Source: Miscanthus floridulus (taxonomy: Eukaryota > Streptophyta > Magnoliopsida > Poales > Poaceae). Taken from it: a stretch of 64,000 nt of DNA. Positions within the stretch are counted from its first letter, which is position 1. The number at the start of each line of letters is the position of its first letter. A program made the translations under genes and the position numbers. Under the pieces are notes generated by a model. That model saw only the letters and a list, made by a program, of their open reading frames with translations. It had not been told where the DNA came from and made no database searches. The stretch covers positions 68,862,485 through 68,926,484 of the forward strand of contig NC_089581.1 in NCBI RefSeq assembly GCF_019320115.1, written 5' to 3'. Of the stretch, positions 11,514-39,656 are shown one piece after another.

Positions 11514-11936
11514 TTAGCATGTAAAAGTAGAAACAAGTAATTTGTGTAAGGGATAACTTCATGGGGGAACCCATGTTAACAGTTCATATTTATGAATACA
11601 TCCATTTCATTTTGTGATGAATCACTTTGTTCGGGGAAGCTTGTCCCATCCGTTCCTTATTTTTACCTTAGCATAATTTTGTTTTTTATTCTTTCTTTTT
11701 TTCACCTTCTCGTTCATCCCATAGGCTGCAACTTTAAGATCCTGGGCATGGCCCACGAGGCTTAGCTACTCATAACCTTAGGTAGAGGTGGGGTGCGATC
11801 AGTCAGAATATTTAAAGCAAAGTTACGTAAGGTAATTAAAGGAACGGACTACCCTTTCGTTCAGGTTGAAAGGTATTTACCATATGATAGTAAACAAAAA
11901 GAGATGTGGTACCGCACCTCCATAGGATAGGGTGCT
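11514..11936 (-). other. Element A region between antisense gene and integrase tail
   Basis: Noncoding. It aligns with 32815-33170 of B (shared pieces AATGAATACATC, TAGCATAAT, TTGCTCAT...GTAGGG(A)AAGGC), showing that A continues across the T1 insertion. GTGCT at 11932-11936 is the left target-site duplication of T1; the right copy is 26496-26500. Confidence 0.6.
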
Positions 11937-12469
11937 TGTAACACCCCAGTGTTAAGCCTACATTTGGGCACTGCAAATCACGCATAGCATGCATCATAAA
12001 GCATAATTAATCATGCATGCCTAATCATGCAAATAACAACTGAAACACTGTTTCGAAACATATGAAACATGCTCGTGAAACATGAATGTTGCATATACTT
12101 GTTTAGAATTGTGTTTGCCCGAAATTCTTGCTAGATTAGTAAAACATGTTTAGCTATTATTGTAAATCATCTAGCAATGTTTAGTTCAATTTTTGGAGCA
12201 ATGTTTGTATTCCAATTTAATTCAAAATTTGGCTTCAAAGATAAATTTCCAAAAATTAGGGTTTTGAGATAAACGTGGACTTTGATGTTACAATTCAAAA
12301 TCTAGAAAGAATTTGGCTTTGGTCATAAAAGCAAAGTTGTAGAGAATTAAATTCTAAACAACTTTCATTTTTGGTACATTTTCAAAAGAGGTCATTTTCT
12401 TGCTCAAAATAATATTTGAAAGAGGGCATTTAAAAATTTCTTGAAAAATATAATTGAAAAAGGATTTTT

Positions 12470-13330
12470 CCTCCTTCGTGGGCCTTGCGCCTCGTTTCTG
12501 GCCCGCCTGCCGAAGCCGGCCTGGCCCGCGTCCCCACCAGCCACGCGCCTCGCGCGTCTCCCGCGCCGGCCCGCAGCGCCCCGGCCCAGCCTAGCTCCGC
12601 GCTCTGGCCCGTCTCCCGCGCGCCGCGCCGTTCCCCTGCTGGTCACCGCGCCACGCCACGACCGCGGTAGAGGACGTCCGCCGCGTGGCGACCGCATGCC
12701 GGCGTCGCCCGCCGTGCGGCAGCCGCGGCCTGGACACCGCGCCCACGCGCCCGCCTTCAACTGCCAGTGCCCGCGCGCTCACTCACTCCCGCCCGCATTT
12801 CTTCTTCTTCCCTCCAGAGCCGAGCGCCCGAGCTCCGCCCTCGCCGCGCCCACAGCTCCGCCAGCGTCAAGCTCCCGCACCGCCGCGCCATTCCTCGATT
12901 GCTCGCGCCCACAACTCCGCCTCGCCTTCCTTCGGCTCACGCTCGCGCTTGCGCCACCTTCCGAGCCCTGGGTGAGCTTCCCCGCACCTCGCCATCGACG
13001 GCCATGGCGCCGCCGTGCTCGGCCCCCATGGAAACCGTCTTCCTTCTCCCCTCCAGCCTCGCCTAGCTACCCTGCCGAACTCGCCTTCTCCTCGCACACC
13101 TCCTACGCTCGCTTGCTTGCGCTGCCATGGCCGGAGATGGCCGCCGGCCGCTGGCCGAGCCGCACCGTCGCGCTAGCGCGCACCCCGGCGAAGCACCCTG
13201 CCTTGGCTGGCCAGGCCGAGCCAGGCCATGGGCTGACGCCTATTGGGCCGTCTCCCCTCCCTCGCGCTCGGGCCGCGCAGGGCGGTGATGGTCGTGGGCC
13301 AGCTGTTCCCCACGGGCCGGCCCAGTATTT
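12470..13330 (+). other. GC- and CpG-rich segment in T1 LTR with a splice donor
   Basis: About 860 bases of very GC-rich sequence inside an AT-rich LTR; the second copy is about 23093-23950. It looks like a grass 5' leader (CACTCACTCCCGCCCGC and TTCTTCTTCCCTCCAG-type strings) and has a good 5' splice site, CTGG|GTGAGC, at 12972 (23596 in the other LTR). It is open for 305 codons on the plus strand, but the product is Pro/Arg/Ala low-complexity sequence and the frame breaks in the 3' LTR, so I do not call a protein. A first exon or leader is more likely. T2 has a GC-rich segment with the same GTGAGC donor. Confidence 0.5.
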
Positions 13331-14247
13331 CTTAAATGAATTGATTTCCATTTATTAATTGTTATTTGAAATCTGAAATGGTTTGAAAAATGTTTGGATG
13401 ATCAAACTTGCTCCAAATTTGTTGAAACAAATTTTTGCTAGGTTCCTTATCATCAGATCTACTTGGGAAAATTTTTGCATGTCATTTTTGGGATACTTTT
13501 CTATAGGATTTTATTTAATCATGGATATTGCTGATAACTTGAAAAATATGTAGAAAAATCTATAGTCTGCAGAAAAATATGATTTCAAGTTTGTTAATCT
13601 TCTTAGGTCATGTACTTCCTAGGAAAAATATGTGTCATGCATGTGCTGTGGAAAACTTTGGAGGTGTAGTTCAAGTGCCTTTAATGGCTGATTTTTGTTA
13701 TTTTTGCTAGAGAGCAAACTTTGTATAAAACATGCATGTGGTAATTTTTGGACAGTCATTATATGCTATTAAGAACCTAGGAAAAATACTAATTCTGTTG
13801 TTTGACACTTTTCATAGTACAAAGTAATTTCATGCTCATTTTTATGCTATAGCTTGTCATTTTTGTGTAGGGTAGTTTACTTATCCAAATGCCATGAAAT
13901 TTTTATGGTAGTTTGTTTAGGATAGTATTAGGCTACTGTAATTTTCTCAGATTTTTAGGAGCATCAGAAATGTATGTTGCTATTCAAACCTATTATTATT
14001 TAGGGTTTAAGCAAGTGTTGCTTTAAGTGTGATTAAGAAATTAGTAAAGCTTTGGTGTATCTTTGAAGCATTTCATAAGATATGTTGATTTAACATATTA
14101 GTAGTAGAAGAGAATGCAGTAGATGACATGTGCTTGTAGTATAGTTTCTTGGATGATGTTGACTACCTTGCATTTAAACATATCCATTGCATTCATCTCC
14201 TTCGATGCACCGTTTGCATAATCACTTACGCGCATTGCATCATACAG

Positions 14248-14395
14248 GATCGCAAACCGAGAACCCAAGTCGTCATACCCGAGGAGCCCGAGGAGCAGTT
14301 CGAGGTGCAGCAGCAGGAAGTGCCAGAAGCCGACGAGGAGGACGTTGAGGAGCTTCCGGAGTGCCCCGATCACCGTCCGAGCTCCTTCGAGAGAG
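14248..14395 (+). other. Acidic exon-like block in T1 LTR
   Basis: A 148-base block follows ATCATACAG (3' splice site) and is followed by AG|GCAAGC, which fits a GC-type 5' splice site. It is fully open in one frame and encodes Glu/Asp-rich sequence (for example PEEPEEQFEV and DEEDVEELPE). The 3' LTR copy is 24872-25018 with one base deleted. T2 has a counterpart (53680-53787) with the same kind of acceptor, the same GCAAGC donor and an acidic open frame. I could not show that it joins in frame to a downstream gene. Confidence 0.45.
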
Positions 14396-15877
14396 GCAAG
14401 CCCCGGAGCATTTTTCTCCCGGTTTGCAATTATTTAATTAAATGCTTTACTTAATTGAATGCATTACGTTCAGGAGTTGTTTGCAACCGTTGCTGCATTA
14501 TACCTTGCTTACCTTTGTTATACTATATCCTTGTTACCCTGGTATCCACAGTCGAGTCAATGCTTAGCTGGCTTAGACCAGTAGAAGTCAGGTGATTTCC
14601 TGTCACCTGCGAGCTATAGGTGGTTACCTGGATCTGCTTGGATGACTATGAAGTCATGGTATAACCTAAGTGTTAAATGAAGTTGAGACCGGACGGAGAC
14701 TTGCAGAGTTTTGGACTGTAGTGCTTTCCGTCTGTGTCGATTAAGGACCGACCGTTGTTGGGCCTCGAGTCATGTTGAACGCATGCCTTACATTTAGCTG
14801 GCCGGATAAAGTACCTTCCGACCGCTGAAGCTGGGAGATTTTTCGGGCCGAGTAGATTGCCCGCAACGCACTAGTACCGGAGCAGGTGTGGTAGGACACG
14901 GGGGCGGGATGATAAGACCAAAGTGCAGTCGGTCGGCCCCCAGGTACATGTGGTTCCTGGCAAACTCGAGATTCCTGGAAAGTTGACTCGGTGATCAATA
15001 TCTCACTTTAGCAGGGTGAGTGAGGTTTGTGTAAGGAACAAATCACCAGCTGGTTAGGAATCGATTCGAATCGCCATCGCTCCTGGATAGTGAGCACTTG
15101 ACTTGAGTTACTTCATCGTAGTAAATGTTATGGAACACTTGGACAGTTATAATGAATATGACAGTAAGGAAGTTGTTTAATGATCATGGGTTATCAGTTA
15201 TCTGCTTAATCACATGTTTACTCTAGTATAGGTGCAAATCTAGTTGACTAGGTTAATAATAATTAACTTGGCAATAATGCTTTTAGAAAGGTTCTTGAAA
15301 TGCTAAAAATGCTTCTTTTTGCAAACGAGTCAGCTACCCTACTATAAAGCCCTTCATAATCCTTGGTGTCATTTATTTTCGGTTATGTCGGGTAAGTCTG
15401 GCTGAGTACCTTCTAGTACTCAGGGTTTTATTCCCACTTGTTGCAGATGGGCAGATGTATTACGGCTACTGTATCAACTGCCTTTATCCTACGATGGGTG
15501 ATGCTTAGGACCATGGGCATGGTCATTCCCTACGTCTCATCTGATGCTTTTGTTGGAGATGATCATTCGCTGGCACTATATTTAAACTCCGCGTGAGTGC
15601 GTGTGTGATTTGAACAAATGACTTCCGCTACTTTTATTCGAACTGGTTTGTAATAACTATGTTTAAACTCTGATGTATCTGAGATTGTGAACTTTTATGT
15701 AATATGTGATGGTGACCGCTAAACTTATTACGATCATGGCTGGGACACGAGTTGGTTTGAAATCCTTCGTGATTTCACGGACTACCGGGTTATACGGGCT
15801 TAAGTTTGTTCGAATCGTCTGCTCTGGTGGATGATTTTCTTACTTAATTTCGTATAATTGGTCGGTTCTATCACAGC

Positions 15878-15889
15878 TGGTATCAGAGC
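15878..15889 (+). other. Primer binding site of T1 (initiator tRNA-Met)
   Basis: TGGTATCAGAGC, complementary to the 3' end of plant initiator tRNA-Met, two bases after the 5' LTR end at 15875. This is the usual primer site of plant chromodomain gypsy elements. Confidence 0.92.
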
Positions 15890-16672
15890 ATGGTTTAGCG
15901 TGTTACTCTTCACAAGTGTATTTAAAACAAAAAGGCATTTGGAAAACGTGATTTTAAAAAAACTATAAAGTGTGCCAGTGATCATATCCTTTATGCCCAG
16001 TTAAGGACTTTAGGTGGCTTAATTAAGTACTGACTGGGGTTCTTGCATCATATTTCTCTTTCGTCGCTCATACGGCGTGCTATTGTATGAGTGCCACTTG
16101 TTTGAGTGGTAATGAATGGATCATTTGCCTCTACGCCTCGGTAAGTGTGAGTTGTGAGAGCATGATCGGATACACCGCCGATCTAGGGTGAATGCTTATA
16201 TGATGCTGGAGTAATTACATGTTCTACGCATGTTTTACAAAGGCATCCCATGTATGGGTCTTCCGTCTGTGGAGGCGATGCCATCAATAGGACGATGGTT
16301 CGGGTAGTTACTACCGTTGTACACGTATCTGGGGATCCGTGTAGAGCGTGTAGATAAAAAATTTTACTGCTTTTATGCATTCATTGGGAATTGGGCTGAA
16401 ATGAATCTTCTGCAGGTACATAACAACGCTATCGTGTAGAACGTATTAGCTACGTATTTGAGAGATCGTTGTTATGCCACCGAATTCGTCGTTAGAAATT
16501 ATTTATTTCCTAAGTTTGTGAGAACGTACGACACGTACATACATCATGTTTACTTGTGCATCTCATTCATCTCATGCATTCCTCCCCTTATAAATTGATT
16601 ATCTCATTTTGATACAAGTTGTATCACCTAAAATATGTTTCCCTGAGGGTAATAAGAGAACTTTTGCTACAG
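15890..16672 (+). other. T1 leader between PBS and extra gene
   Basis: AT-rich and without a supported open frame. It ends CTTTTGCTACAG directly before ATG 16673, a good plant 3' splice site (pyrimidine-rich then CAG), so part of the leader is probably intron in the message for the extra gene. Confidence 0.5.
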
Positions 16673-17293
16673 ATGGCCCGCACGAAGCAGACCGCCCGTA
16701 AGTCCACCGGAGGAAGAGCACCTCGACGTCCGTTGGCCCTAAGGGAGCACCGCACCACGGACACCTTCTTGAGCGAATTTGGCATGCCAACTTTGCTTTG
16801 GAGAGTGCTCCATGATGTGGGGTACCCAGAGGGTCAAGAGCCGGTGTACTCTTGGAATGAAAGCCAGTTAGCAGATGATGGACTTGCAGTGGTGGAGATC
16901 ACGGTTCCTGCTCTCGGTGATGCTCCAGATTGGGATGGTTGGCATTTGGAGTTTGAGGGTCGCACTCCAGCTGAGGGTGCAGAGGGAGCAGCCTTCCGTG
17001 TCATCAGGGACATTATGAGCAGATTTCCCAGTGAGCTTGCTGCAGCTCTAGCTAGTACTTTTCCTAGGGATGATCCTCGTGATGCCATTTGGGTTCAGCC
17101 TCCAGGAAGTGCATTGGTCAGAGGTCCAGCTGAGGGACAGGCTAGCGACAACCAGGCAATGAGTGCTATGTTCGCCGCCATCAGAGCGTATGAGGGTCTC
17201 GAGAGTACCTACTGGACTTTGACTGGCTTGCGTAGTGAGGATAAGCTCAAAGGGAAGAAGCAGAAGAAGAGGCAGGCATCGAGCTATAGCTAG
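16673..17293 (+). CDS. T1 extra gene, part 1: histone H3-tail-mimic protein
   Basis: 206 codons from ATG 16673, chosen because it follows the splice-acceptor-like CTACAG and starts the H3 similarity; an upstream in-frame ATG at 16619 would add 18 residues. After Met the protein reads ARTKQTARKSTGG, identical to residues 1-13 of histone H3, then RAPRRPLALR, which follows H3 with Lys14, Lys18 and Lys23 replaced by Arg. The histone fold is absent. Residues 25-190 form a domain I cannot name, with Trp-rich pieces and repeated Glu-Gly. It ends in the basic stretch KLKGKKQKKRQ, a possible nuclear signal. A frameshift at about 17280 separates it from the coiled-coil part. Histone mimicry is inference; the identity is visible. 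Confidence 0.8.
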   Translation: MARTKQTARKSTGGRAPRRPLALREHRTTDTFLSEFGMPTLLWRVLHDVGYPEGQEPVYSWNESQLADDGLAVVEITVPALGDAPDWDGWHLEFEGRTPAEGAEGAAFRVIRDIMSRFPSELAAALASTFPRDDPRDAIWVQPPGSALVRGPAEGQASDNQAMSAMFAAIRAYEGLESTYWTLTGLRSEDKLKGKKQKKRQASSYS

Positions 17294-17663
17294 CTTGCAG
17301 GAGCAGTTGGCTGATATGAACTTACAGCGAGATCAAGCGGTTGAGAGAGGTGATAGAGCTATGCAGCGAGTGCATACGTTGACTCAAGCCAACAACAATG
17401 CAGACCACATGATTGGACAGTTGGTTCAAGAAAGGAATGAAGCCTGGAACGCAAGAAACCTTCTGCTGCAGAGGGTCGATGAGCTAGAGGAATACAACGG
17501 CTACTTGCACGAGGAGTTTCACGCGCTCTACAATGGGGTTGGCCCATATGCTCCACCGAACGTCGCTGGCATGGACGTTGACAACGACAACGAGGACGAG
17601 CCTGCAGTTTCACCTGGGGGCGATGGTGACGTCTCCGATCCCGACGATGGCCCCGAGGAGTAG
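17235..17663 (+). CDS. T1 extra gene, part 2: coiled coil and acidic tail
   Basis: This frame overlaps the end of part 1 and is most likely its continuation after a one-base indel near 17280. From about 17295 it encodes a heptad-like coiled coil (SLQEQLADMNLQRDQAVERG onward, about 85 residues) and then an acidic tail rich in Asp and Glu (MDVDNDNEDEP... to DPDDGPEE, stop 17661-17663). T2 has the same order and a similar end (GMDMDTDD). Acidic tails are common in histone-binding proteins, but binding is not shown here. The ATG at 17235 is probably not a real start. Confidence 0.7.
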   Translation: MRISSKGRSRRRGRHRAIASLQEQLADMNLQRDQAVERGDRAMQRVHTLTQANNNADHMIGQLVQERNEAWNARNLLLQRVDELEEYNGYLHEEFHALYNGVGPYAPPNVAGMDVDNDNEDEPAVSPGGDGDVSDPDDGPEE

Positions 17664-18028
17664 GCTAGTTGCTTTGCGCTAGTATCTAGGTCTTGTCGCG
17701 ATGACCTTTCTTTTGTTGGCATGTAACCTATCGTATGTTGCTTCGAACGTATGCGACTTGCCTATGGTTGGAACTTGATTTTCGAATGCGATATCTGAAC
17801 GCATAAAAAGTCCAGTGTATGTATGCTGGCAATGTGATTGTATGGACGCGATGTTTGCCGTTGAAGTAATTCGATTAAGTGCTGTTGTTTTAATTGGAAT
17901 GCGATTGTTGTGCCTCTGTTTTTATTGTATGAATTTATTCTCTCCAGTAAATTCAGTATGGCATAATTTTTCCTTCACTCGCAATTATTACAGCTTCACT
18001 CAATCGTACTTGTTGCTGAAATATGCAG
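17664..18028 (+). other. Intron-like spacer between the T1 extra gene and gag
   Basis: 365 bases, AT-rich, no supported gene. It ends TTGCTGAAATATGCAG directly before the gag ATG at 18029, again a good 3' splice site. The matching spacer in T2 is 51210-51369. Confidence 0.5.
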
Positions 18029-19256
18029 ATGACAAACACTCGCCGAACCACGTATGAGGCCGCTGAGCCCGGTGCCAACGGTGCAGGGACCGGTGGTGGT
18101 GGTGGTGGTGGTGGAAACCACGGCAACAACAATGAACCTCCCCATGAACCGCATTTGCCACCTCCTCCCCTGTTTACCCCCGAGATGTTCCTCGCACAGC
18201 TGCTCGGGAGTCAGCGCAACGCGGAACAATCTCAGAAGAACATGGAGGATCTTCTTCGAACCATCGCCAACAACGTTCAACAGTGGTAACAATCAAGGTG
18301 GTGGCATGGGAGTGAACCAATATAGCAGCTTCAAAGATTTCATGGACACCAGGCCACCAGTATTCAAGGAAGCAACAGAGCCACTCGATGCTGAGGAATG
18401 GATCAACACGATGGAAGATAAATTCCGTGTGTTGAGGATGACTGAGGTTCTGAAAACGGAGTATGCTGCACTTCAATTGCAAGGACCGGCGGGAATGTGG
18501 TGGAAGCACCATCGCACCACCTTCCCTCCAAATGCTCAAATTTCTTGGAGAGAGTTTGCTGAGGCCTTCCGTGGAGTCTATATTCCACCCGGGCTGACCG
18601 AGATGAAGTTGGGAGAGTTTCTAGCGTTGAACCAGGGCACCAAGACCTGTGACGCAATACCTGCATGCCTTCAACAACTTGTGTCGCTATGCTCCCGACA
18701 TGGTTGACACAGATGCTAAAAGGATAGCCAGTTTTAAGAGGGGTCTCAATCCAAAAATGATGAAGCATGTTGGTACCAACAACCGCGTCAGATTCAACGA
18801 CTTCATCAGCGACTGTCTGAAGCAGGAGAAGAATAACAACGCCAGCACCGCAGCCAAGACACGCAAGAGAGCCTTTGAAGGTGGGCCGTCTCAAGCTAGA
18901 GCACCTATGGGAGGTCGTCCTCCTTATCGCCCATCGGCACCTGGCGCTAGATTCAGGCCACCTCAGCCAAGAAGTCAGAATTTCCGTGGACCTCAAAAGC
19001 CGTACAAGATGGCAGTACAGCCCAACAAAGCAGCCGCAACTGCGGTACAAGGCAGTTCCAAGGGAGCTGTGGGATCTGCCGGGACAGTAAGAGGACCCTG
19101 CTATAACTGTGATCAACCCGGTCATTTCTCGAGGTTTTGTCCGTACCCGCCTAAGAAGAAGCAGCAGACTTATAATGCTAGAGTGCATAGTACAACAGTG
19201 GATGAAATTCCAGAGGGAGAGCCCGTCACTGCTGGTAAGTTTCCTGTCAACTGAAA
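18029..19256 (+). pseudogene. T1 gag, frameshifted
   Basis: Gag forms the particle and binds RNA. ATG 18029 directly follows a CAG splice-acceptor-like site. The amino-terminus has a Gly tract from a (GGT)n repeat (18092-18114). The gag core follows (FKDFMDTRPPVFKEATEPLD, WMK-like GMWWKHHRTTFP, REFAEAFRGVYIPPGL). The zinc knuckle CYNCDQPGHFSRFC (C-x2-C-x4-H-x4-C) is at 19099-19140. Three frame changes are needed, near 18285, 18645 and 19252, so no full Gag is made from this copy unless these are sequencing errors. Confidence 0.85.
18092..18114 (+). repeat. (GGT)n microsatellite in T1 gag
   Basis: Seven to eight GGT units encode a poly-Gly tract in Gag. Such repeats change length easily. Confidence 0.85.
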
Positions 19257-19321
19257 ACCCTGTAGTTGTTCTATTTGATTCTGGATCATCGCATTCTTTT
19301 ATGAGTCAAGCATTTGCATAG
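19109..19321 (+). pseudogene. T1 protease, amino-terminal part
   Basis: From about 19253 the frame encodes VVVLFDSGSSHSFMSQAF, with the catalytic Asp codon at 19277-19279 (DSG). This is the usual aspartic protease active site of chromodomain gypsy elements, right after the zinc knuckle. A TAG at 19319-19321 ends the frame, and the rest of the protease continues in the same frame at the start of the long pol frame ([12 protein letters not shown] onward). The upstream codons of this frame (19109-19250) are gag read out of frame. Confidence 0.8.
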
Positions 19322-19345
19322 AAACATGGACAACTATGCACAGAA

Positions 19346-22300
19346 TTGGGTTATGGGTACCGTATAAGTTCAGCAGGGGCTGATGTTTTGACCAACCGGA
19401 TGGTTCGAGGGGCAACCCTTGAATTAGGTAGCAGGAAGTTCCGAGTGAACTTAATAGTTATGCCTGGATTAGTTTTGGATGTCATTATAGGGATGAATTG
19501 GATGAAGGATTGGGGAGCAGTCATAGATACGGGAAGTCGAGTACTTACCCTTAAGGATCCCCTGGGTGAGGGTACTTTCCAAGTACCATTGCCTCGAAGG
19601 ACAGACCTTATAAGTGTTACATGTGCTACGGCAGTCACTCCTATTCATCAGATTCCGATAGTGTGTGAATTCCCGGACGTATTTCCGGATGAGCTACCTG
19701 GTCTTCCGCCAGATAGGGAGATTGAGTTTGGAATTGAGCTAGTCCCCGGAACAGCTCCAATTTCAAGGAGACCATATCGGATGCCTCCAGATGAGTTAGC
19801 TGAGCTGAAGAAGCAATTAGAAGATTTGTCGAAAAAGGGGTTTATTCGACCAAGCAAGTCTGAATGGGGATGTCCCGCTTTGTTTGTGAAAAAGAAGAAA
19901 GAGGGCACGTTGAGAATGTGCGTAGATTATAGGCCACTCAACGCTGTGACCATCAAGAATAAATATCCCTTGCCTCATATTGATGTTCTGTTTGACCAAT
20001 TATCCAAGGCCAAGGTGTTCTCAAAAATAGATTTGAGATCCGGTTATCATCAGATCAAGATTAGGCCACAGGATATACCGAAAACTGCATTTTCCACCAG
20101 ATACGGGTTGTATGAGTATCTTGTCATGTCTTTTGGCTTGACGAATGCTCCCGCATACTTTATGTTTTTGATGAATACAGTTTTCATGCCAGAATTGGAT
20201 AAGTTTGTGGTAGTGTTCATCGATGACATTCTGGTGTACTCCGAGAACGAAAAAGATCATGAAGAGCATCTGAGAACTGTCTTGACCAGACTTAGAGATC
20301 ATCAATTGTATGCTAAGTTTAGCAAATGCGAATTCTGGTTGAAGGAAGTTCCTTTCCTTGGTCACATTCTGTCAGAGAATGGAGTTTCAGTCGATCCAAG
20401 TAAGGTGCAAGAAGTTATGAATTGGAAAGCACCGACCACAGTTCCTGAGATTAGAAGTTTCTTAGGATTAGCAGGTTATTACCGTCGCTTTATACCAGAT
20501 TTCTCGAAGATCGCCAAACCAATGACAAGCCTCCTTCAGAAGGATCATAAATTTGTGTGGACAGAAGAGTGTGAAGCAGCTTTCCACACTTTGCGGAAAC
20601 TGTTGACCACTGCTCCTGTTCTAGCACAACCAGATATTGAGAAACCATTTGATGTGTTTTGCGACGCATCGAAGACTGGATTGGGTTGTGTCCTTATGCA
20701 AGAAAGGAGAGTCATTGCTTATGCATCACGACAGTTGAGAAAGCACGAGGTCAACTATCCAACACATGATCTTGAACTTGCTGCAGTTGTGCACGCCCTC
20801 AAAATTTGGAGACATTATCTACTTGGTAATGTGTGCAATATTTTCACGGATCATAAGAGTCTTAAGTATATCTTTACCCAACCAGAGCTAAACATGAGAC
20901 AGCGTAGATGGTTGGAATTGATCAAAGATTACAACTTGAATGTGCAATATCATCCTGGTAAAGCCAATGTAGTGGCAGATGCTTTGAGCAGAAAGTCACA
21001 TTACTTGAATGTGCAGCCATTACTTGAAGATGGATTCGATCTAATGCATCCTGCTGTGTTACATAGTATTCAGATTAGTTGCTCGTTGGAGAGTAAGATA
21101 ATAGAAGGTCAGAAAACTGACAAGGGGATATTCCACATCAAAGAGAAAATAAAAGAAAAGCCGTCTCAACACTTTAAAGTGGATGAACAGGGCGTGTTGT
21201 GGTTTGACAACCGTCTTGTGGTTCCCAAGGATCGAGAGCTTAGGAATAAACTCATGGATGAAGCTCACCTTTCTAAGCTATCTATCCATCCCGGAAGTAG
21301 TAAGATGTATCAAGGACTAAGATCCCGCTATTGGTGGACCAAAATGAAGAAAGAGATTACAGCATATGTTGCCAGATGTGACATATGTTGTCGAGTGAAA
21401 GCCATTCACATGAAACCTACCGGTATGTTGCAACCCTTATCAGTCCCTAGTTGGAAGTGGGACGATATCAGTATGGATTTTATCACGGGTTTGCCCACTA
21501 CTCAAAAAGGACATGATTCGATATGGGTAATTGTGGATCGTCTTACCAAGACCGCTCATTTCTTGCCTGTCAAAACAGATTATCGACCACCTCAATATGC
21601 CGAGAGATATATCGCAGAAATTGTGAGGTTGCATGGAATACCAAAGACCATAGTGTCTGATAGAGGCTCACAGTTCACGGCTCATTTTTGGGAACATTTA
21701 CACAAAGGCTTAGGAACTAGTTTGATTCGCAGTACCGCTTATCATCCTCAGACAGATGGTCAGACTGAACGAGTAAATGCTATTTTGGAGGATATGTTGA
21801 GAGCCTGTGTATTGTCTTCCAAGGGATCTTGGGAGTCATGGTTACCGTTAGCTGAATTTTCTTATAATAATAGTTATCAAGAAAGCATCAAGATGGCCCC
21901 ATTCGAAGCTTTATATGGCAGAAAATGTAGAACACCATTGAATTGGGTCGAGCCTGGTGATAGAAGGTATTATGGCATTGACTTTGTAGAAGAAGCCGAG
22001 AAGAAAGTTCATATTATTCAGCAGAATATGAAAGCTGCCCAATCACGTCAGAAAAGCTATGCAGACAAAAGAAGGAGACCCCTTGTGTTTGAAGTTGGTG
22101 ACTATGTTTATCTGAAAGTCACGCCAATGAAGAAGAAAAGGTTTGGAATCCGAAGAAAGCTTGCCGCGAGATTCGTAGGACCATACAAGATCTTGGAACG
22201 AAGAGGTCCGGTAGCCTACAAGTTAGAGTTACCTGAAACAATGAGTACCGTTTTCCCAGTTTTCCATGTATCGCATCTCAAGAAATGTTTGCGTGTTCCG

Positions 22301-22564
22301 GAGGAAAGAATAGAACCTCGAGGTATTCAACTCAAATCAGATTTGGTGTATCGTGAGCAACCAGTCCGGGTGTTAGACACTAAGGAACGTGCTACTCGGA
22401 ATAGTGTGGTGAAAACATACAAGATACAGTGGGATCATCATGATGAGGGAGATGCAACTTGGGAAACAGGAGAGTATCTACAAAAAGCTTATGAAGAATT
22501 TTATAACAAATGGTTCGTAACCCAAATCTCGGGACGAGATTTTTATAAGGGGGGAGGGCTGTAA
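19346..22564 (+). CDS. T1 pol: protease end, RT, RNase H, integrase, chromodomain
   Basis: 1072 codons, open to the end. Order: protease remainder (1-60); RT with FIDD catalytic box near residue 291 (20216-20227); RNase H with CDAS near 437; integrase zinc finger HPGSSKMY...CDICCRV (about 648-685); catalytic triad D711, D772, E808 (D-x60-D-x35-E); and a carboxy-terminal chromodomain (about 1005-1053, with [14 protein letters not shown] and GDATWE). The first and third aromatic cage positions seem absent, as in group II chromodomains. It would copy and integrate the element. The tail [12 protein letters not shown] is encoded by the polypurine-tract region, and the TAA stop (22562-22564) lies inside the 3' LTR. 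Expression needs the upstream protease stop to be bypassed. Confidence 0.93.
22524..22542 (+). promoter_or_regulatory. Hairpin before the T1 polypurine tract
   Basis: AAATCTC-GGGAC-GAGATTT: a perfect 7-bp stem with a 5-base loop, five bases before the polypurine tract. T2 has the same stem with loop AGGAC on its coding strand (46569-46587). It overlaps the pol tail. Confidence 0.7.
22547..22559 (+). other. Polypurine tract of T1
   Basis: AAGGGGGGAGGGC, immediately before the 3' LTR start at 22560. It primes plus-strand DNA synthesis. Confidence 0.9.
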
Positions 22565-25500
22565 CACCCCGGTGTTAAGCCTACATTTGGGCACTGCAAA
22601 TCACGCATAGCATGCATCATAAAGCATAATTAATCATGCATGCCTAATCATGCAAATAACAACTGAAACACTGTTTCGAAACATATGAAACATGCTCGTG
22701 AAACATGAATGTTGCATATACTTGTTTAGAATTGTGTTTGCCCGAAATTCTTGCTAGATTAGTAAAACATGTTTAGCTATTATTGTAAATCATCTAGCAA
22801 TGTTTAGTTCAATTTTTGGAGCAATGTTTGTATTCCAATTTAATTCAAAATTTGGCTTCAAAGATAAATTTCCAAAAATTAGGGTTTTGAGATAAACGTG
22901 GACTTTGATGTTACAATTCAAAATCTAGAAAGAATTTGGCTTTGGTCATAAAAGCAAAGTTGTAGAGAATTAAATTCTAAACAACTTTCATTTTTGGTAC
23001 ATTTTCAAAAGAGGTCATTTTCTTGCTCAAAATAATATTTGAAAGAGGGCATTTAAAAATTTCTTGAAAAATATAATTGAAAAAGGATTTTTCCTCCTTC
23101 GTGGGCCTTGCGCCTCGTTTCTGGCCCGCCTGCCGAAGCCGGCCTGGCCCGCGTCCCCGCCAGCCGCGCGCCTCGCGCGTCTCCCTGCGCCGGCCCGCAG
23201 CGCCCCGGCCCAGCCCAGCTCCGCGCTCTGGCCCGTCTCCCGCGCGCCGCGCCGTTCCCCTGCTGGTCGCCGCGCCACGCCACGACCGCGGCAGAGGACA
23301 GTCCGCCGCGTGGCGACCGCATGCCGGCGTCGCCCGCCGCACGGCAGCCGTGGCCTGACACCGCGCCCACGCGCCCGCCTTCAACTGCCAGTGCCCGCGC
23401 GCTCACTCACTCCCGCCCGCATTTCTTCTTCTCCCCTCCAGAGCCGAGCGCCCGAGCTCCGCCCTCGCCGCGCCCGCAGCTCCGCCGGCGTCAAGCTCCC
23501 GCACCGCCGCGCCATTCCTCGATTGCTCGCGCCCACAACTCCGCCTCGCCTTCCTTCGGCTCACGCTCGCGCTTGCGCCGCCTTCCGAGCCCTGGGTGAG
23601 CTTCCCCGCACCTCGCCATCGACGGCCATGGCGCCGCCGTGCTCGGCCGCCATGGAAACCGTCTTCCTTCTCCCCTCCAGCCTCGCCTAGCTACCCTGCC
23701 GAACTCGCCTTCTCCTCGCACACCTCCTGCGCTCACTTGCTTGCGCTGCCGTGGCCGGAGATGGCCGCCGGCCGCTGGCCGAGCCGCGCCGTCGCGCCAG
23801 CGCGCACCCCGGCGAAGCACCCTGCCTCGGCTGGCCAGGCCGAGCCAGGCCGTGGGCTGACGCCCTGTTGGGCCGTCTCCCCTCCCTCGCGCTCGGGCCG
23901 CGCAGGCCGGTGATGGCCGTGGGCCAGCTGTTCCCCACGGGCCGGCCCAGTATTTCTTAAATGAATTGATTTCCATTTATTAATTGTTATTTGAAATCTG
24001 AAATGGTTTGAAAAATGTTTGGATGATCAAACTTGCTCCAAATTTGTTGAAACAAATTTTGCTAGGTTCCTTATCATCAGATCTACTTGGGAAAATTTTT
24101 GCATGTCATTTTTGGGATACTTTTCTGTAGGATTTTATTTAATCATGGATATTGCTGATAACTTGAAAAATATGTAGAAAAATCTATAGTCTGCAGAAAA
24201 ATATGATTTCAAGTTTGTTAATCTTCTTAGGTCATGTACTTCCTAGGAAAAATATGTTTCATGCATGTGCTGTGGAAAACTTTGGAGGTGTAGTTCAAGT
24301 GCCTTTAATGGCTGATTTTTGTTATTTTTGCTAGAGAGCAAACTTTGTATAAAACATGCATGTGGTAATTTTTGGACAGTCATTATATGCTATTAAGAAC
24401 CTAGGAAAAATACTAATTCTGTTGTTTGACACTTTTCATAGTACAAAGTAATTTCATGCTCATTTTTATGCTATAGCTTGTCATTTTTGTGTAGGGTAGT
24501 TTACTTATCCAAATGCCATGAAATTTTTATGGTAGTTTGTTTAGGATAGTATTAGGCTACTGTAATTTTCTCAGATTTTTAGGAGCATCAGAAATGTATG
24601 TTGCTATTCAAACCTATTATTATTTAGGGTTTAAGCAAGTGTTGCTTTAAGTGTGATTAAGAAATTAGTAAAGCTTTGGTGTATCTTTGAAGCATTTCAT
24701 AAGATATGTTGATTTAACATATTAGTAGTAGAAGAGAATGCAGTAGATGACATGTGCTTGTAGTATAGTTTCTTGGATGATGTTGACTACCTTGCATTTA
24801 AACATATCCATTGCATTCATCTCCTTCGATGCACCGTTTGCATAATCACTTACGCGCATTGCATCATACAGGATCGCAAACCGAGAACCCAGTCGTCATA
24901 CCCGAGGAGCCCGAGGAGCAGTTCGAGGTGCAGCAGCAGGAAGTGCCAGAAGCCGACGAGGAGGACGTTGAGGAGCTTCCGGAGTGCCCCGATCACCGTC
25001 CGAGCTCCTTCGAGAGAGGCAAGCCCCGGAGCATTTTTCTCCCAGGTTTGCAATTATTTAATTAAATGCTTTACTTAATTGATGCATTACGTTCAGGAGT
25101 TGTTTGCAACCGTTGCTGCATTATACCTTGCTTACCTTTGTTATACTATATCCTTGTTACCCTGGTATCCGCAGTCGAGTCAATGCTTAGCTGGCTTAGA
25201 CCGGTAGAAGTCAGGTGATTTCCTGTCACCTGCGAGCTATAGGTGGTTACCTGGATCTGCTTGGATGACTATGAAGTCATGGTATAACTAAGTGTTAAAT
25301 GAAGTTGAGACCGGACGGAGACTTGCAGAGTTTTGGACTGTAGTGCTTTCCGTCTGTGTCGATTAAGGACCGACCGTTGTTGGGCCTCGAGTCATGTTGA
25401 ACGCATGCCTTACATTTAGCTGGCCGGATAAAGTACCTTCCGACCGCTGAAGCTGGGAGATTTTTCGGGCCGAGTAGATTGCCCGCAACGCACTGTACCG

Positions 25501-26495
25501 GAGCAGGTGTGGTAGGACACGGGGGCGGGATGATAAGACCAAAGTGCAGTCGGTCGGCCCCCGGGTACATGTGGTTCCTGGCAAACTCGAGATTCCTGGA
25601 AAGTTGACTCGGTGATCAATATCTCACTTTAGCGGGTGAGTGAGGTTTGTGTAAGGAATAAATCACCAGCTGGTTAGGAATCGATTCGAATCGCCATCGC
25701 TCCTGGATAGTGAGCACTTGACTTGAGTTACTTCATCGTAGTAAATGTTATGGAACACTTGGACAGTTATAATGAATATGACAGTAAGGAAGTTGTTTAA
25801 TGATCATGGGTTATCATTATCTGCTTAATCACATGTTTACTCTAGTATAGGTGCAAATCTAGTTGACAGGTTAATAATAATTAACTTGGCAATAATGCTT
25901 TTAGAAAGGTTCTTGAAATGCTAAAAATGCTTCTTTTTGCAAACTGAGTCAGCTACCCTACTATAAAGCCCTTCATAATCCTTGGTGTCATTTATTTTCG
26001 GTTATGTCGGGTAAGTCTGGCTGAGTACCTTCTAGTACTCAGGGTTTTATTCCCACTTGTTGCAGATGGGCAGATGTATTACGGCTACTGTATCAACTGC
26101 CTTTATCCTGCGATGGGTGATGCTTAGGACCATGGGCATGGTCATTCCCTACGTCTCATCTGATGCTTTTGTTGGAGATGATCATTCGCTGGCACTATAT
26201 TTGAACTCCGCGTGAGTGCGTGTGTGATTTGAACAAATGACTTCCGCTACTTTTATTCGAACTGGTTTGTAATAACTATGTTTAAACTCTGATGTATCTG
26301 AGATTGTGAACTTTTATGTAATATGTGATGGTGACCGCTAAACTTATTACGATCATGGCTGGGACACGAGTTGGTTTGAAATCCTTCGTGATTTCACGGA
26401 CTACCAGGTTATACAGGGCTTAAGTTTGTTCGAATCGTCTGCTCTGGTGGATGATTTTCTTACTTAATTTCGTATAATTGGTCGGTTCTGTCACA
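22560..26495 (+). mobile_element. 3' LTR of T1
   Basis: 3936 bases, TGTAACACCCCGG...GGTTCTGTCACA, followed by the GTGCT duplication at 26496-26500. It repeats the GC-rich segment (about 23093-23950) and the acidic block (24872-25018). Confidence 0.95.
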
Positions 26496-26500
26496 GTGCT

Positions 26501-26690
26501 CTATAGGAGCGAATGTTGAATGAAAAAATCGTAAGACCAAATTTTTAAGGGAAGAAACGACATAACTATTCGATGTTCCAAGTGTTGGTGAGAATGTCGT
26601 CGTTATCGTCCTTTAGTCGGTAGGCGCCCGATCAGATCACTTCAGTCACCATATAGGGTCCTTCCCATGGTGGAGAGAGTTTGACTTGTT
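26501..26690 (-). pseudogene. Element A integrase tail at a deletion
   Basis: Aligns with B at about 33215-33385 (for example CAATGTTCCAAGTGTTGGTGAGA-like sequence and CCTTCCCATGGTGGAGAGAG), which encodes the integrase carboxy-terminus PPWEGPYTV. To the right the sequence jumps to material matching B near 36655, upstream of RT. The deletion in A therefore removes about 3.3 kb, with RT, RNase H and most of integrase. Confidence 0.7.
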
Positions 26691-27480
26691 GTAGTCTGGG
26701 ACTGCTTGGGTCGATAACTCCCCGAGCCATGGGAGCTCAGAAGAGTTGATGATGGTAGTGGCGAGCTCATAATGCTCGTGGTCGCACATGAAGGTGTGCG
26801 AGAAGGTGCTACCCACAGTGATGATGTCATTTAGTCCTTACATATTTAGCTTTAGGTAGGCATAGTTGGGGACCGCCATGAATTTGACATAGCATGGCTG
26901 CCCCATGACGGCATGGTAAGACCCCAGGAAGTCCACCACCTCGAAGGTAAGCACCTCCAAGCGAAAGTTGGCTTGGTCACCAAACATGACGGGTAGGTCG
27001 ATCTACCCGAGCAGGTATGCCTGCACTCTCAGGATCATGCCATGGAAGGGAGAGCTCACCGGTCGGTGCTCCGACCAGGGGATGTGCATGGCATCGAGGG
27101 TGTCAATGTAGAGGATGCTGAGGCCGCTGCCTCCATCCATCAGCACCTTGGTGAGGTGCTTCTTGCAGACGATGGGGTCAACGATGAGTGGGTAGCATCC
27201 TGGTCTGGAATGTGGGATGGATGGTCCCTCTGATCAAAAGTCATCGAAGAATCTAACCAGTGGAGGAAGGTGGGGACCACCATTTCGGTGACGCATGCCT
27301 CTCTATAGCGCACTTTGTGCAGGCGCTTGGAGTAGACAACATTAGATCCCTAGAAGATCATGATGCATTCCTCAAGGTCAAGGAAGTTGTCCCCATCCTT
27401 GCCTATTGCACCTCCTTTCTTGGCTACCGCCTCCTTGCCCTTTCCTTCTTTCAGCCCGTCGGCCTATCGTAGGAAGCGCT
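26691..27480 (-). pseudogene. Element A protease and linker remnant
   Basis: The minus strand has the protease motif KVLMDGGSGLSILY at about 27155-27115 and, further on, the linker segment corresponding to B 36690-36960 (pieces GSYHAVMGQPCYVKFMAVPNY-like). Broken by stops. It would process Gag-Pol. Confidence 0.65.
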
Positions 27481-29695
27481 TCAGGAGCTCACAGTCCTTA
27501 TAGAGGTGTTTGATGGGGTAGGCATGGTTGGTGCATAGGCTATCCATGAGTTTGTCGAAGTGGTTAGACAGTCCCTGCTGGGGATGCTTGCCCATGTGAT
27601 CAGCTGCGGTGACCAACGCGGTGTTGGTCGGTCGGCACCGATCATTTTTGTTCTTCTTGCCCCTCTATGTGGAGGGGCCCTCATCTCAGTTCTCGTGCTT
27701 GGCCCTGCCCTTGTCCTAGCCTCCATTGAAGACTACTCTGACCACCTCCTCGCTAGAGGTGTGGTTTGTGGTGACATCGAGCAGGTCACGTGCGGGTGGT
27801 ACGGGGCTTCAGACAGCCAAGCTTATGGATCAGGGACTCACAGGATGTCTTGGAGAGGAATGAGCTGATGACGTCCACGTCGACAACATTGGGAAGGGAG
27901 TTGCATTGCTTTGAGAACCTATGGATGTAATCCCATAGGGACTCGTTGGGCTCCTGTTGGCAGCTCTTAAGGTCCCAGGAGTTCCCAGGGTAGGCGTACG
28001 TCCTTTTGGAAGTTCCCGATGAAGACCCTCTTGAGGTCCGCCCAGTCACGAATGCTATTGTGTGCTAGGAATTCGAGCCATGCTCAAACATGTTCCCCTA
28101 TGCAGATGGAGAGGTACTGAATGATGAAGTGGTCATCATCTACTCTGGCTCGGTAGGCGAGCCAAAAGTCTTCGAGCCATATACTAGGGTTCATCTCCCC
28201 GGTATACTTGGTGATGTTGGTAAGTGGTTGAAAGCGCTGTGGGAACAATGCTCTCTAGATGCGCTAGCCAAAGGCCCATGGTCCTAGGCCATCCGGGTTG
28301 GGACTCCAGTCATTGGGTCAGTGACCATGCCTAGGGTGTGTTTACCGGTCTCCTCGGTGGTTCGGCCAGAGTCCGTGTCGTCTACTCTCACCACATGCCT
28401 AATGGATGTCATCATCATGCCAAGCCCAACACTGGTTGCTGATGCTGCTGTGAGCATCTTGTTTGGGCCCAAGGCATTCATGCATAGGCGGTTGGTGTGG
28501 AGCAGGTGCTGGGTTAGGCTGTGACATAGCTGCACCCTCCTATTCCATGCCTGGTGGCTATAGTGGCGAGTGGATGGAGCGATGCATCTGGTGCATCCCC
28601 ACCCCTAGTGGGAAGAGAGGCTGCAAGTTGGTGTCATGACACGAAGCTCTCCACCTATTGAACGATGACTATCTCCACTAGTGCCCAGAGGTTTCGGTGG
28701 ACTGGCTGTTCCTGTGGGTCGACGGGCTTGGGAAGGCCACGCAGAAGCATCACTGCCAAAGTGATGTTCTGACTAGCCCAAGCAAACTATGGGGGATTGT
28801 TCCCCCATTAATGATGTTGCACTGAACCTGGCAGGCGCGACCTCTGGCACCGCTCACCAGGTTATGCACATGGGGCACAGCATGTTGCACCAAGCATGCC
28901 AGTGTAGGTGGTGGCTGGTTCTACCGCTGTTGCCGTAGCTCCTTGCTATGCTCCTAGGCACATGCGAGGACATTCACGCGAGGGTCCAGAGGGGTGTGGG
29001 TCTGTAGAGACTCTACCACCATCGGTGGCTATCCTGGAGTGTATGCCATAGCGCACTCCCAAGATAGAGGGTGGCTGGGTGTTGTGACATCGCTGATGCT
29101 AGAGTTGTCGCTCTTAATATCGCCATCCATGGGGTTGTGAAAAGAGGCAGGAGTGTAGCTCGCCATCCCCATGAATTTGAATGTGAGAGGGGGCAGCACC
29201 AGCATCCTTTGGAGCCCCCAGGCATATGTGTCCGTGGGGTACGTGAGGCCATAGGGGAACTAGTCGCATGGTGGTCACAGCAGGGACAACGGGGTCCCTC
29301 CGAAGAGTCGGTGAAAGATAGTAAATAGCGAGTAAATAACAAAGCGTACATTACTCACAGTGGGGTTTGAGCAGAGCGTATGCTTGGAACGAAGCGTAGG
29401 TGCCTCACCATTGAAGTCGTCAGATGTCCTAGAGCTAATGGAGGGCGCCCCTCCAGCGGCCACCAGAACGAGTGCCTCCTCATAGAGGTGAAGCACGCTG
29501 AGCCAGTCGGCGATGAAGTCTAGGCTTCTAAAGAGGTAGGCCTAGGATGGCTCGAAGGCGGGTGGAACCCACATCTCAATAGGTGGTAGTGTGGGAAACT
29601 CCAGTGAGCTGAAGCGAGTCGTATCGCTCAAGCCCACCATGGTGAAGGTGGTGGAAAGGTTGGCCATCCAATGACCAAAAGCGTGAACATACGAC
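27481..29695 (-). pseudogene. Element A gag remnant
   Basis: The minus strand contains the gag core at 28049-27786 (TYAYPGNSWDLKSCQQEPNE, DYIHRFSKQCNSLPN, CESLIHKLGCLKP), close to B 38000-37700. Upstream pieces (28535-28284 and 29496-29275) match the amino-terminal part. Several stops and frame changes are present. Confidence 0.72.
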
Positions 29696-29699
29696 ATCT

Positions 29700-29717
29700 T
29701 CCCCACGGACGGTGCCA
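29700..29717 (-). other. Primer binding site of element A
   Basis: On the minus strand TGGCACCGTCCGTGGGGA, two bases from the LTR start at 29720. The matching site of B reads TGGCGCC at its start. It resembles the tRNA-Asp-type site (TGGCGCCG...GGGGA) used by many Tat and Athila elements; the tRNA assignment is tentative. Confidence 0.6.
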
Positions 29718-29719
29718 AC

Positions 29720-29750
29720 AGTCGAGGTAGAAAGTGACCAACACATAAAT
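29720..29750 (-). mobile_element. 5' LTR of element A, first piece
   Basis: The first 31 bases of the LTR of A (compare 3875-3905), cut by insertion of B. It ends TAAAT (29746-29750), the left duplication of B; the right copy is 40898-40902, where the LTR resumes with ATATTTGTAG. Confidence 0.85.
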
Positions 29751-30970
29751 TGTCAGTGCAGAAAGTGACCAACTAGTGAATATTTGTAGTTTTGCTGTAC
29801 GTTGCGATCGGAGGTGGCCTAGCACTCAATGACACAAGATTTATACTGGTTTGGGCAATGTGCCCTACGTCTAGTCGGGGTCGGTTGGTGACTTTATTCC
29901 TAAGCCCAAGTGCTCAAAGTTTGCAGTGGGGTTACAAATGAGAGGGAGAAAGATGGGTGTACAAGAGGTCCGGTCAGCTCCGACCGGATGGGCCGAGAGT
30001 GACAAGAACTTCACTATGAGCTAAGTGTTCAAGCTGGTGCTTGAGGTCTAAACCTGGTGGTTCAGTGGTTGTGAGCTATCGATCTAAGGAACTCTGGCCT
30101 ACTGGAATCGGTCTCCTTTGTTGGAGGAAGTGCACCCCCTTTTATAGATGAAGGGGATAGCTTTACAAGTGAGAGGGAAAGGGTGCGTATGCTACCGAGC
30201 CTTGTTGTCCACACCTACCGAGCCTTGTTGCCCACACCGGCAGGTACCAGATAATGGTAGGTGCCTACAACACTATTGATGTCACTGTAGAATGTCAGAT
30301 GCATACAGGAGGTCATGCTGCCTTTTTTAGGGATGCTGGACGTCGGTACCTACAAATACTATTTGATGCCTAGAGGCATGTGAGGAGTCTCGCTATGTTC
30401 ACCCAGTATGGTAAATCTTGGCACCCATACCGGTATTGATGCCCAGAGGCACGTGCAGGGCCTTACCGTATGGAGTTTTAGCGGCCCCTACAATACTATA
30501 GAGGGAGATGTCGGTGCCTACAATACTATTCCATGCAGGGTATGGTCCCATGTATAGTTGTTTTGACTTGCGAGCCTTACCTTGCCTTTCTTCGCATGTC
30601 ATCTGGTTCCTACTGAGCGAGCATCCCCGGTCGGATGGCTCCAGTCGGCTCTGAGTGCACCGTTCGGAGAAGAGTGGTGAGTAGGGTTCCTACGAGCCCC
30701 GGTCGTTAGGACGTGGGGTCAGAGTTGGAAGTAGCGCTTTGGGCCAGGCCTTTTGATCGAAGAGGGCATCCGGAGGCGGCTGGAGCCCGAATCGAGTGCT
30801 TCGGTCAGATAGGTGGGCCGAAGTAGCTGACAAGCGGGTGTTGTTCTTCTTGGGCTAGGCCTTCTGGTCGGTCGTTGGACTTCCCCTTTGCTCTGTTATT
30901 TTTAGACTCTTGGGCCAAGCCTAGGCGTAGAAGCCAATCCTCGAGGGACCCTAGGTTTATGAACCTAACC
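29751..30970 (-). mobile_element. 3' LTR of element B
   Basis: TGTCAGTGCAG to AACCTAACC; the final base is C where the other LTR has A. Differences from the 5' LTR are mostly C/T and G/A changes. It contains a TATA-like TTATAGATGAAGG near 30140 and a local repeat of the string TACCGAGCCTTGTTG at 30197 and 30216. Confidence 0.85.
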
Positions 30971-33259: not shown

Positions 33260-34530
33260 ATGACGTAGCTATTCAATGTTCCAAGTGTTGGTGAGAGCAT
33301 TGCCGTTGTTGTCCTCTAGTCGGTAGGTGCTTGGTCAGATTACTTCGATCACTGTATAGGGCCCTTCCCATGGTGGAGAGAGCTTGTGTTTTTCCTTCAT
33401 TGATTGGGTCCTTCGGAGTTCAAGATCGCCGACTTCGAGTATCCTTCCCCTGATCTTCCTTTCGTGGTACCTGCGGAGGGTTTGTTGGTAGTGAGTGGAG
33501 CGGATGATGGTCATTTCATGGGCCTCTTCGAGTAGGTCGATCGTGTCTTGTTGAGCCTCCGTAGCTCGGTCACGGTCGAAAGCCTTCACTCTTGGTGCGC
33601 CATGGTCGAGGTCAGAGGGCAACACTGCCTCAACTCCATAGGCTAGGAAGAAGGGTGTGAATCTTGTGGATCAGTTTGGGGTTGTTCTTAGGCTCTAGAG
33701 GATCGCTGGAACCTCTGCTACCCATTGCCCAGTGTACATGTTGAGTCGATTGAAAATGCATGACTTAAGTCCCCGGAGGACCATGCCATTGGCACGTTCG
33801 ACCTAACTGTTAGTTCATGGATGTCCGACTAAAGCCTAGTCGATCCTGATACCATATCCATCGCTGAAGTCTAGGAACTTTTTTCGGTGAAGTTAGTCCC
33901 GTGGTCAGTGATGATATAATTAGGAACACCAAACCGGTAGATGATGTTGAGGAAGAATTTGACTGCCTCCTCCAACCGAATGTTGGTGATGGGTTTGGCC
34001 TCTATCCACTTGGTGAATTTGTCGACCGCTACGAGTAGGTGGGTGAAACCACCTAGGGCCTTTTTGAGGGGTCCTACCATGTTGAGGCCCTAGACCGCAA
34101 ACGGCCAGGTGATGGGGATGGTTTGGAGCTCTTGTGTCAGCAAATGGGTTTGCCAAGTGTAGAACTGGCATCCTTCACACATGCAGACAACCTCCTTCGC
34201 ATCTCATAGCGTAGTGGGCTAGTAAAAACCTTGGCAGAAGGCTTTTCCGACCAGCAACCTTGGGGCCATGTGATGCCCACAAATGCCAGCATGGACCTCG
34301 ACGAGGAGCTGCCTCCCTTGATCGGTGGGGATACACTTCATGAGTACTCCTGATGGGCTCTGTTTGTAGAGCTTGTCACCGAGCGTGATGAAGGTCTTTG
34401 CACGCCAAGCGATCCATTGGGCTTCAGTCCTTTCGGGTGGGAGAACCTCCTCGAGGAGGTAGGCGAGTAGCAGTACTTGCCAGTCAGTTTGATCGAGTGT
34501 TAGTACGGTAACATTCACGGGTGACATAGA
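33260..34530 (-). pseudogene. Element B integrase
   Basis: The minus strand encodes the zinc-finger start GICGHHMAPRLLVGKAFCQG (about 34310-34220), then VAVDKFTKWIEAKPI (first Asp) and TDHGTNF (second Asp, about 33910), and the carboxy-terminal domain (33625-33335, ending PPWEGPYTVIEVI). No chromodomain follows, as expected for Tat. Integrase would insert the cDNA. Stops and frame changes separate the blocks. Confidence 0.78.
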
Positions 34531-36660: not shown

Positions 36661-36689
36661 GGACTACTAGTGTTGATGACTCCTCGAGC

Positions 36690-39650: not shown

Positions 39651-39656
39651 GCATCT

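Follow-up and report, generated by a model that had tools for sequence, protein, structure and literature searches.

Why should a plant retrotransposon carry, between its primer binding site and gag, a reading frame whose product begins like histone H3? The locus that raises this question lies in a stretch of 64,000 nucleotides from Miscanthus floridulus, the whole of which is called the window here. An earlier note had placed such a gene between the primer binding site and gag of an element called T1, had read its first 13 residues as identical to those of H3 with similarity continuing to about residue 23, had seen no histone fold behind them, and had judged a chance match of this kind very unlikely; all of these observations held in the analysis described below. 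The further proposal of that note, in which chromatin writers or readers are offered a free tail like that of H3 by the element, is taken up after the evidence on origin and constraint.

An H3-like reading frame in two retrotransposons of the window

The features of the two elements concerned, T1 and T2, are as follows.

11937-26495, plus strand: T1, an LTR retrotransposon delimited by its LTR pair and target site duplication
11932-11936: 5' copy of the target site duplication GTGCT flanking T1
26496-26500: 3' copy of the target site duplication GTGCT flanking T1
11937-15875, plus strand: 5' LTR of T1 (3939 bp)
22560-26495, plus strand: 3' LTR of T1 (3936 bp)
15878-15889, plus strand: primer binding site of T1, TGGTATCAGAGC
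16141-16146, plus strand: candidate 5' splice donor TCG/GTAAGT, 532 nt upstream of the ORF0 ATG
16662-16672, plus strand: candidate 3' splice acceptor TTTTGCTACAG, abutting the ORF0 ATG
16673-16744, plus strand: H3-like tail of T1 ORF0, the initial Met and the 23 residues that align with H3 1-23 (1-13 exact)
16673-17293, plus strand: T1 ORF0 in the window copy, 206 codons followed by a stop
16778-17038, plus strand: predicted dsRBD-type domain of T1 ORF0, residues 36-122
17235-17663, plus strand: C-terminal part of T1 ORF0 with the coiled coil and acidic end, lying in a different frame in the window copy
18023-18031, plus strand: second candidate acceptor ATGCAG, abutting the gag ATG (18029)
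18029-19254, plus strand: T1 gag region, in several frames in the window copy, with gag domain and CCHC knuckle
19346-22564, plus strand: T1 pol with protease (partial), RT, RNase H and integrase
22364-22507, plus strand: chromodomain-like C-terminal segment of the T1 integrase (PF00385, E 0.0065, under the curated cut-off)
42882-55953, minus strand: T2, an LTR retrotransposon with LTR blocks 42882-46554 and 52291-55953
51832-51906, minus strand: H3-like tail of T2 ORF0, MAKTKITARKSTRPHGVPRHQLAPQ
51373-51906, minus strand: T2 ORF0, 178 codons including two in-frame stops, with tail, coiled coil and acidic end

T1 is a Ty3/gypsy element, probably of the Tekay/Del type, a class assigned from its LTRs of more than 3 kb, the extra sense ORF between primer binding site and gag, and the pol order RT, RNase H, integrase. 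We take its primer binding site to be of the initiator-tRNA-Met (iMet) type. The K2P distance between the T1 LTRs is 0.0087, indicating a young insertion of about 0.3 million years at the rate of 1.3e-8 used for LTR dating; T2, with a K2P of 0.049 between its LTRs, is older. Parts of the two pol regions align at 68-70% nucleotide identity, and T2 is homologous to T1 in the chromodomain region, where the T2 integrase (46734-47195, minus strand) reads AEYPIRVLD versus REQPVRVLD in T1, so that the first cage site may still be aromatic in T2. The T1 copy in the window is decayed, with ORF0 stopping early and gag broken over several frames; a 329-codon ORF0 was read in 13 of 68 fetched loci, among which the window copy (L001) has only 206 codons. 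The T1 LTRs also contain open frames at 12441-13358 (305 codons; no Pfam family found) and at 23064-23690 (208 codons, within a GC-rich, proline/alanine-rich stretch). Elsewhere in the window, direct repeats of about 4.3 kb at 26683-30969 and 36645-40896 are 76% identical and are perhaps an older LTR element, a weak trace of an integrase C-terminus accompanies them at about 33314-33475, and 56208-56726 holds short direct repeats, some 200-375 bp in size, with an identity of about 79%.

The T1 ORF0 protein starts MARTKQTARKSTGG, and the frame opening at 16673 reads MARTKQTARKSTGGRAPRRPLALREHR... The 13 residues after the Met equal H3 1-13, and 'APR', 'L' and 'A' beyond them extend the match to about residue 21-23. 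As a background, all ATG starts of the window that remain open for at least 24 codons were compared on both strands with H3 1-13. Among these 981 starts, 979 match at no more than four positions and the other two at 9 and 13, and a chance match was rejected on this ground; the start with 9 matches is that of T2 ORF0 at 51906 on the minus strand, MAKTKITARKST... When the first 27 residues of ORF0 were searched with phmmer against PDB sequences, 137 matches at E of 10 or below were returned, and the best 60 of the 137 are all H3-type chains (one of them named Cse4), with a best E of 5.4e-8.

No histone fold was found behind the tail, where Pfam gave no family at E of 1 or below and the AlphaFold models predict a dsRBD-type fold. 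Pfam and NCBIfam yielded no informative family for ORF0, the top Pfam match of the ORF0 homolog P0050 being a coiled-coil family at E 0.00027, under the cut-off, and a scan of viral contigs with P0050 found no relative. The T1 protein is laid out as tail, dsRBD-type domain, coiled coil and acidic end; the dsRBD-type domain is absent from T2 ORF0 in the window. In both AlphaFold models the tail is disordered, and residues 36-122 are predicted to adopt the alpha-beta-beta-beta-alpha fold common to the dsRBDs of DRB and Dicer-partner proteins, the top structural matches being TRBP dsRBD3 with Dicer, DRB7.2:DRB4, Staufen dsRBD5 and Loqs dsRBD3. Canonical dsRBDs carry KKxAK at the start of helix 2. 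At this place most of the ORF0 motifs counted have TPxEGAEG instead and lack the basic RNA-contact motif, so the domain would be likelier to bind protein than RNA.

Spread, origin and constraint of the tail

Protein searches returned 85, 260 and 131 homologs, giving a list of 263 different proteins. These make up three ORF0 classes, T1, T2 (beginning MAKTKITARKSTGPHGVPRHQLAPR) and T3 (beginning MARTKVTPRKSTGPKGVPRHQLAPR), which have the tail, coiled coil and acidic end in common; only the tail and a coiled-coil motif (NEAW...LHEE) can be aligned across them, and the middle parts cannot. Counting as tail-bearing those with at least 11 positions matching a class reference, 68 of the 263 (29 T1, 30 T2 and 9 T3) carry the tail. 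The other 195 show no tail; many are fragments or start at internal Met codons, so that true losses do not stand out among them and they count neither for nor against the tail. Against PDB sequences, the whole T2 protein gave 21 matches, 17 of them H3-type, the best of these weak (E 0.088) and ranking after the coiled-coil protein SEC2, and the single match of the whole T3 protein was H3, likewise weak (E 0.28); these matches cover H3 1-24/27.

The genome searched comprises 2.68 Gb in 2420 contigs, with C1-C19 chromosome-sized. Each of five whole-genome queries gave at least 150 scored matches, after a loose first pass with 9199, 8446, 8513, 9587 and 4008 candidates; T1, T2 and T3 each reach this number of scored copies, in sets that overlap and are not copy numbers. 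Some T3 copies, on C7, C10, C18, C1839 and C1840, are regularly spaced, four pairs at about 9.40 kb and two at about 12.45 kb, as if they were tandem elements, perhaps sharing LTRs.

The earlier note had named related copies that lack the tail or change there at random as a finding that would speak against it; this was put to the test in two ways and did not hold. All 150 scored T1 copies match from residue 1, in a sample biased to close copies. In addition, a tail-blind query (104 residues from the middle of P0050) gave at least 150 matches, and in 20 of them, sampled at steps along the list, the tail coding sequence was at its expected place every time, with residues 1-13 exact and in frame in 16; the remaining four have G12E, R8C, A7T and a frameshift. 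In three of the 20 the frame is stopped or broken at residue 17-19, and one has a short deletion just after residue 16. As all 20 belong to one subfamily, they test decay and not depth.

To trace the source of the tail, 16 host H3 genes were compared, eight intronless and eight with an intron behind the K23 codon, the latter being called H3.3-type by this gene structure. The T1 tail is identical to the H3.3-type gene L084 at 39 of 42 nt, the three differences all falling at third positions, and the best intronless gene reaches 38 of 42, so close a result that overall identity hardly decides between an H3.3 and an H3.1 source. The codon pattern alone favours H3.3: S10-T11-G12 is written TCC-ACN-GGA in all eight H3.3-type genes and in none of the intronless ones, all eight of which have GGC for G12, and TCC-ACY-GGA is common to the T1, T1b, T2 and T3 representatives (off by one base in T1c, in T1d and in several single T2 copies). 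The distinction thus depends largely on one or two codons, and codon bias could produce the same pattern. In T1, T2 and T3 alike the H3-like block extends as far as R23; in the H3.3-type genes the first coding exon has its end at K23 (AAG/GT). Moreover, AG abuts the ATG in five of the eight H3.3-type genes, two of them with a clear acceptor-like ATGCAG/ATG as in ORF0. RRKS and TRAPR in some T1 subfamilies might carry the H3 likeness on to A24-S28, and this would weaken the exon-1 argument.

We are highly confident that the tail is homologous to H3 by descent, and the codon and exon comparisons indicate that its source was probably coding exon 1 of a host gene of the H3.3 type. The alternative is that the tail converged on H3 inside ORF0, with nothing captured from a histone gene. 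The T2 and T3 tails are indeed less H3-like, with R2K in T2, A7P in T3, other residues at Q5 and extra residues after G12. Convergence would nevertheless have to account for the nucleotide identity with a host H3 gene, the common TCC-ACY-GGA codons and a further stretch of likeness (PR.QLA), which is spaced roughly as in H3 and ends at the exon-1 border; if the classes are related, their ancestor would have been H3-like throughout. We therefore regard it as very improbable.

The residues kept and lost among the 68 tail-bearing homologs follow a pattern. K9 is lysine in every one, with no exchange for arginine, S10 is present in 65, K4 in 64 (the exceptions being R in three T1-type homologs and W in one) and R8 in 59, its changes to C or H matching what CpG decay of Arg codons would produce. 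Lysine is found at K18 and K23 in none of the 68 and at K14 in only 10 (1 of 29 T1, 0 of 30 T2 and 9 of 9 T3), the lost acetylation-site lysines being mostly replaced by R or H. These counts indicate that the methylation/phosphorylation block has been kept and the acetylation sites replaced.

Substitutions were counted in 46 of the 68 fetched loci, those with an ATG and open over 150 codons (22 were dropped), the 68 having been chosen by total score, tail included. Between T1 and T1b (414 pairs, with 18 of the 21 open T1b copies), pS and pN were 0.51 and 0.004 in residues 1-13, 0.71 and 0.25 in the basic stretch 14-23, and 0.74 and 0.34 in the body. Residues 1-13 thus differ on average by 5.6 synonymous and 0.11 nonsynonymous changes, compared with 99 nonsynonymous differences per 288 sites in the body (Fisher test on the rounded counts 0/28 and 99/288, p 2e-5). 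Silent divergence is itself lower in the tail than in the body, and the tail has only about 11 synonymous sites. The dN/dS of residues 1-13 was 0.04 for T1-T1c and 0.14 for T1b-T1c, against 0.16 and 0.23 in the body, the same direction with a smaller contrast, in a T1c set that is mixed and includes the T1b copies L014, L034 and L060.

Taken at the level of sequence, this makes it very likely that the tail is under strong constraint as protein and that selection maintains an H3-like peptide. A functionless H3 fragment hitch-hiking in recent copies would agree with the fact that the sampled copies are mostly alike and hence recent. It is contradicted by the substitution pattern, in which about half of the silent sites of the tail have changed between T1 and T1b while the protein is nearly unchanged, and the tail also persists over three classes whose middle parts do not align; we give such a relic hardly any credence. 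The same data bear on the possibility that the tail is merely a basic peptide taken from H3 for nuclear localisation or nucleic-acid binding. H3 tails do serve as karyopherin ligands. The 5'aORF proteins of grasses are predicted to be nuclear (excerpts of PMC11728184). Such a peptide would tolerate exchanges of K for R and neutral changes, whereas K9 is invariant and residues 1-13 are nearly frozen beside a basic stretch 14-23 that is relaxed. A role of this sort alone appears quite unlikely.

Predicted expression and possible function of the tail

Candidate splice sites surround ORF0. CAG or TAG abuts its ATG in 66 of the 68 loci, and most of 20 T2 and T3 copies have CTACAG, or something close to it, at 3 and 1 nt upstream of the ATG. 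Nearly every T1 copy, like several related ones, has the donor TCG/GTAAGT at a distance of 523-536 nt upstream; in most T1b copies its place is taken by AAG/GTAAGA at 482-489, and a few loci have neither donor. A gag ATG abutting CAG was found in 55 of the 68 loci, and none was found there in 13. The arrangement of one donor and two acceptors suggests that separate ORF0 and gag-pol messages would be made by alternative splicing. The tail itself includes a perfect 5' splice donor hexamer, GTAAGT, at 16698-16703 within the codons of R8-K9-S10 (CGT AAG TCC); it is present in T1 and T3, and the T1b and T2 representatives have CGC instead.

H3K9 is the lysine that plants mark to silence mobile elements. 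A free and flexible H3-like N-terminus, carried by a coiled-coil protein and frozen at K9, suggests that the H3K9 loop of the host is involved. We propose that Tekay/Del-type retrotransposons encode in ORF0 an accessory protein, the first 23 or so residues of which were taken from a host H3 gene. The protein would be translated from spliced RNA. The Met-Ala start is kept in tail-bearing ORF0, and an initiator Met before Ala is removable, so that its removal may free the H3-like N-terminus. The coiled coil would then display two or more free tails that could not be acetylated at K18 and K23, and the tail K9 might be used by SUVH-type H3K9 methyltransferases or bound by readers of H3K9me2, CMT and similar proteins. 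In this role the tail would serve as a decoy and so weaken the silencing of the element.

The proposal in the earlier note that a free tail is offered to chromatin writers or readers is supported in part and indirectly: the tail is exact, N-terminal, predicted to be disordered, found in three classes and constrained, with K9 invariant and Met-Ala kept. The engagement of K9 writers or readers by the tail is a deduction from these properties, and we consider it reasonably likely. On balance we favour the reading that the tail was captured from host H3 and has been kept by selection as a mimic engaging H3K9 writers or readers. The A7P of T3 and the R2K of T2 might weaken canonical chromodomain or PHD recognition. 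The complete picture, an H3.3 exon 1 captured long ago, with K9 frozen and its acetylation sites gone, forming a soluble and multivalent likeness of heterochromatic H3 by which the host's H3K9 methylation loop is titrated or hijacked and which is expressed from an element splicing ORF0 and gag alternatively, is put forward tentatively, as possible rather than probable.

Engagement of the K9 system could also serve integration, if the type II integrase chromodomain of the element itself, or heterochromatin proteins, bind the K9-methylated tail and the integration complex is thereby brought to its target. Both window elements encode a chromodomain-like C-terminus. According to parts of PMC6317226, the partner of type II chromodomains is unidentified, a question that the ORF0 tail makes testable as well, and a section of PMC12786077 states that their mechanism is yet to be elucidated and that fusions of group II chromodomains go to heterochromatin. 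Against such targeting, the T1 segment seems on inspection to keep one of three cage positions, and type II domains are described as lacking the first and usually the last cage residue (parts of PMC6317226). In sunflower, Tekay groups 1 and 3 possess a type II chromodomain but no 5'aORF (excerpts of PMC11728184), and ORF0 is absent from the dicot homologs of Retrosat2 (excerpts of PMC3485330). We think this tethering role unlikely. If the tail does engage the K9 machinery, a decoy is somewhat likelier than a tether, because the element would gain directly from blunted silencing and because its type of chromodomain lacks cage residues.

Relation to known systems

An extra ORF between LTR and gag-pol, as in T1, is known from the grass Tekay-type elements with an ORF0 or 5'aORF (Retrosat2, RIRE3, RIRE8, FRetro3, ZMsat2, Sorsat2 and Sb7), which are likened to T1 here by their published descriptions. 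In the relevant parts of PMC3485330 and PMC11728184, these elements have LTRs of over about 3 kb and encode fast-evolving proteins, predicted to be nuclear, with a long C-terminal helix; the ORF0 proteins of maize Tekay and sorghum Sb7 show weak similarity to a DRBM protein, and the function is given as unknown or guessed to be hydrolase-like. A word search did not find 'histone' in the main texts of PMC3485330, PMC11728184, PMC7264820 and PMC13317346, and among the open papers searched we found no link between ORF0/5'aORF or retrotransposons and the H3 tail, although an earlier remark is possible. ORF0/5'aORF is thus known already (PMC3485330, PMC11728184), and an H3 tail on it was not found described in the open literature searched.

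Although these ORFs have long been described, they have had no function assigned, and the H3 tail offers a direct and cheap peptide test. The constancy of the tail, above all at K9, suggests an element that copes with its host by imitating chromatin; if this is true, histone mimicry would here be practised by a high-copy mobile element within the host genome and be aimed at the very lysine used for its silencing. We know of no histone mimicry by the anti-silencing protein of VANDAL, presumably VANC, which is a different protein from ORF0 in another class of transposon. The decoy reading of ORF0 is likened to it as a transposon-encoded accessory that counters silencing, as described in parts of PMC11728184 and PMC13317346. 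Sections of PMC9289625 describe an orchid Ty3/gypsy lineage that, like T1, has retained an additional ORF with a host-type domain, in this case an AlkB m6A demethylase domain proposed as a response to host surveillance; the AlkB domain is catalytic, whereas the ORF0 tail is substrate- or ligand-like. The nearest functional precedent is influenza A NS1, likewise a parasite protein resembling the H3 N-terminal tail, which interferes with readers of H3 marks (excerpts of PMC12937675). The mimic of NS1 lies in its C-terminal region according to the same excerpts, in contrast to ORF0, in which 13 exact residues stand at the true N-terminus, are written in H3-gene-like codons and belong to a plant retrotransposon.
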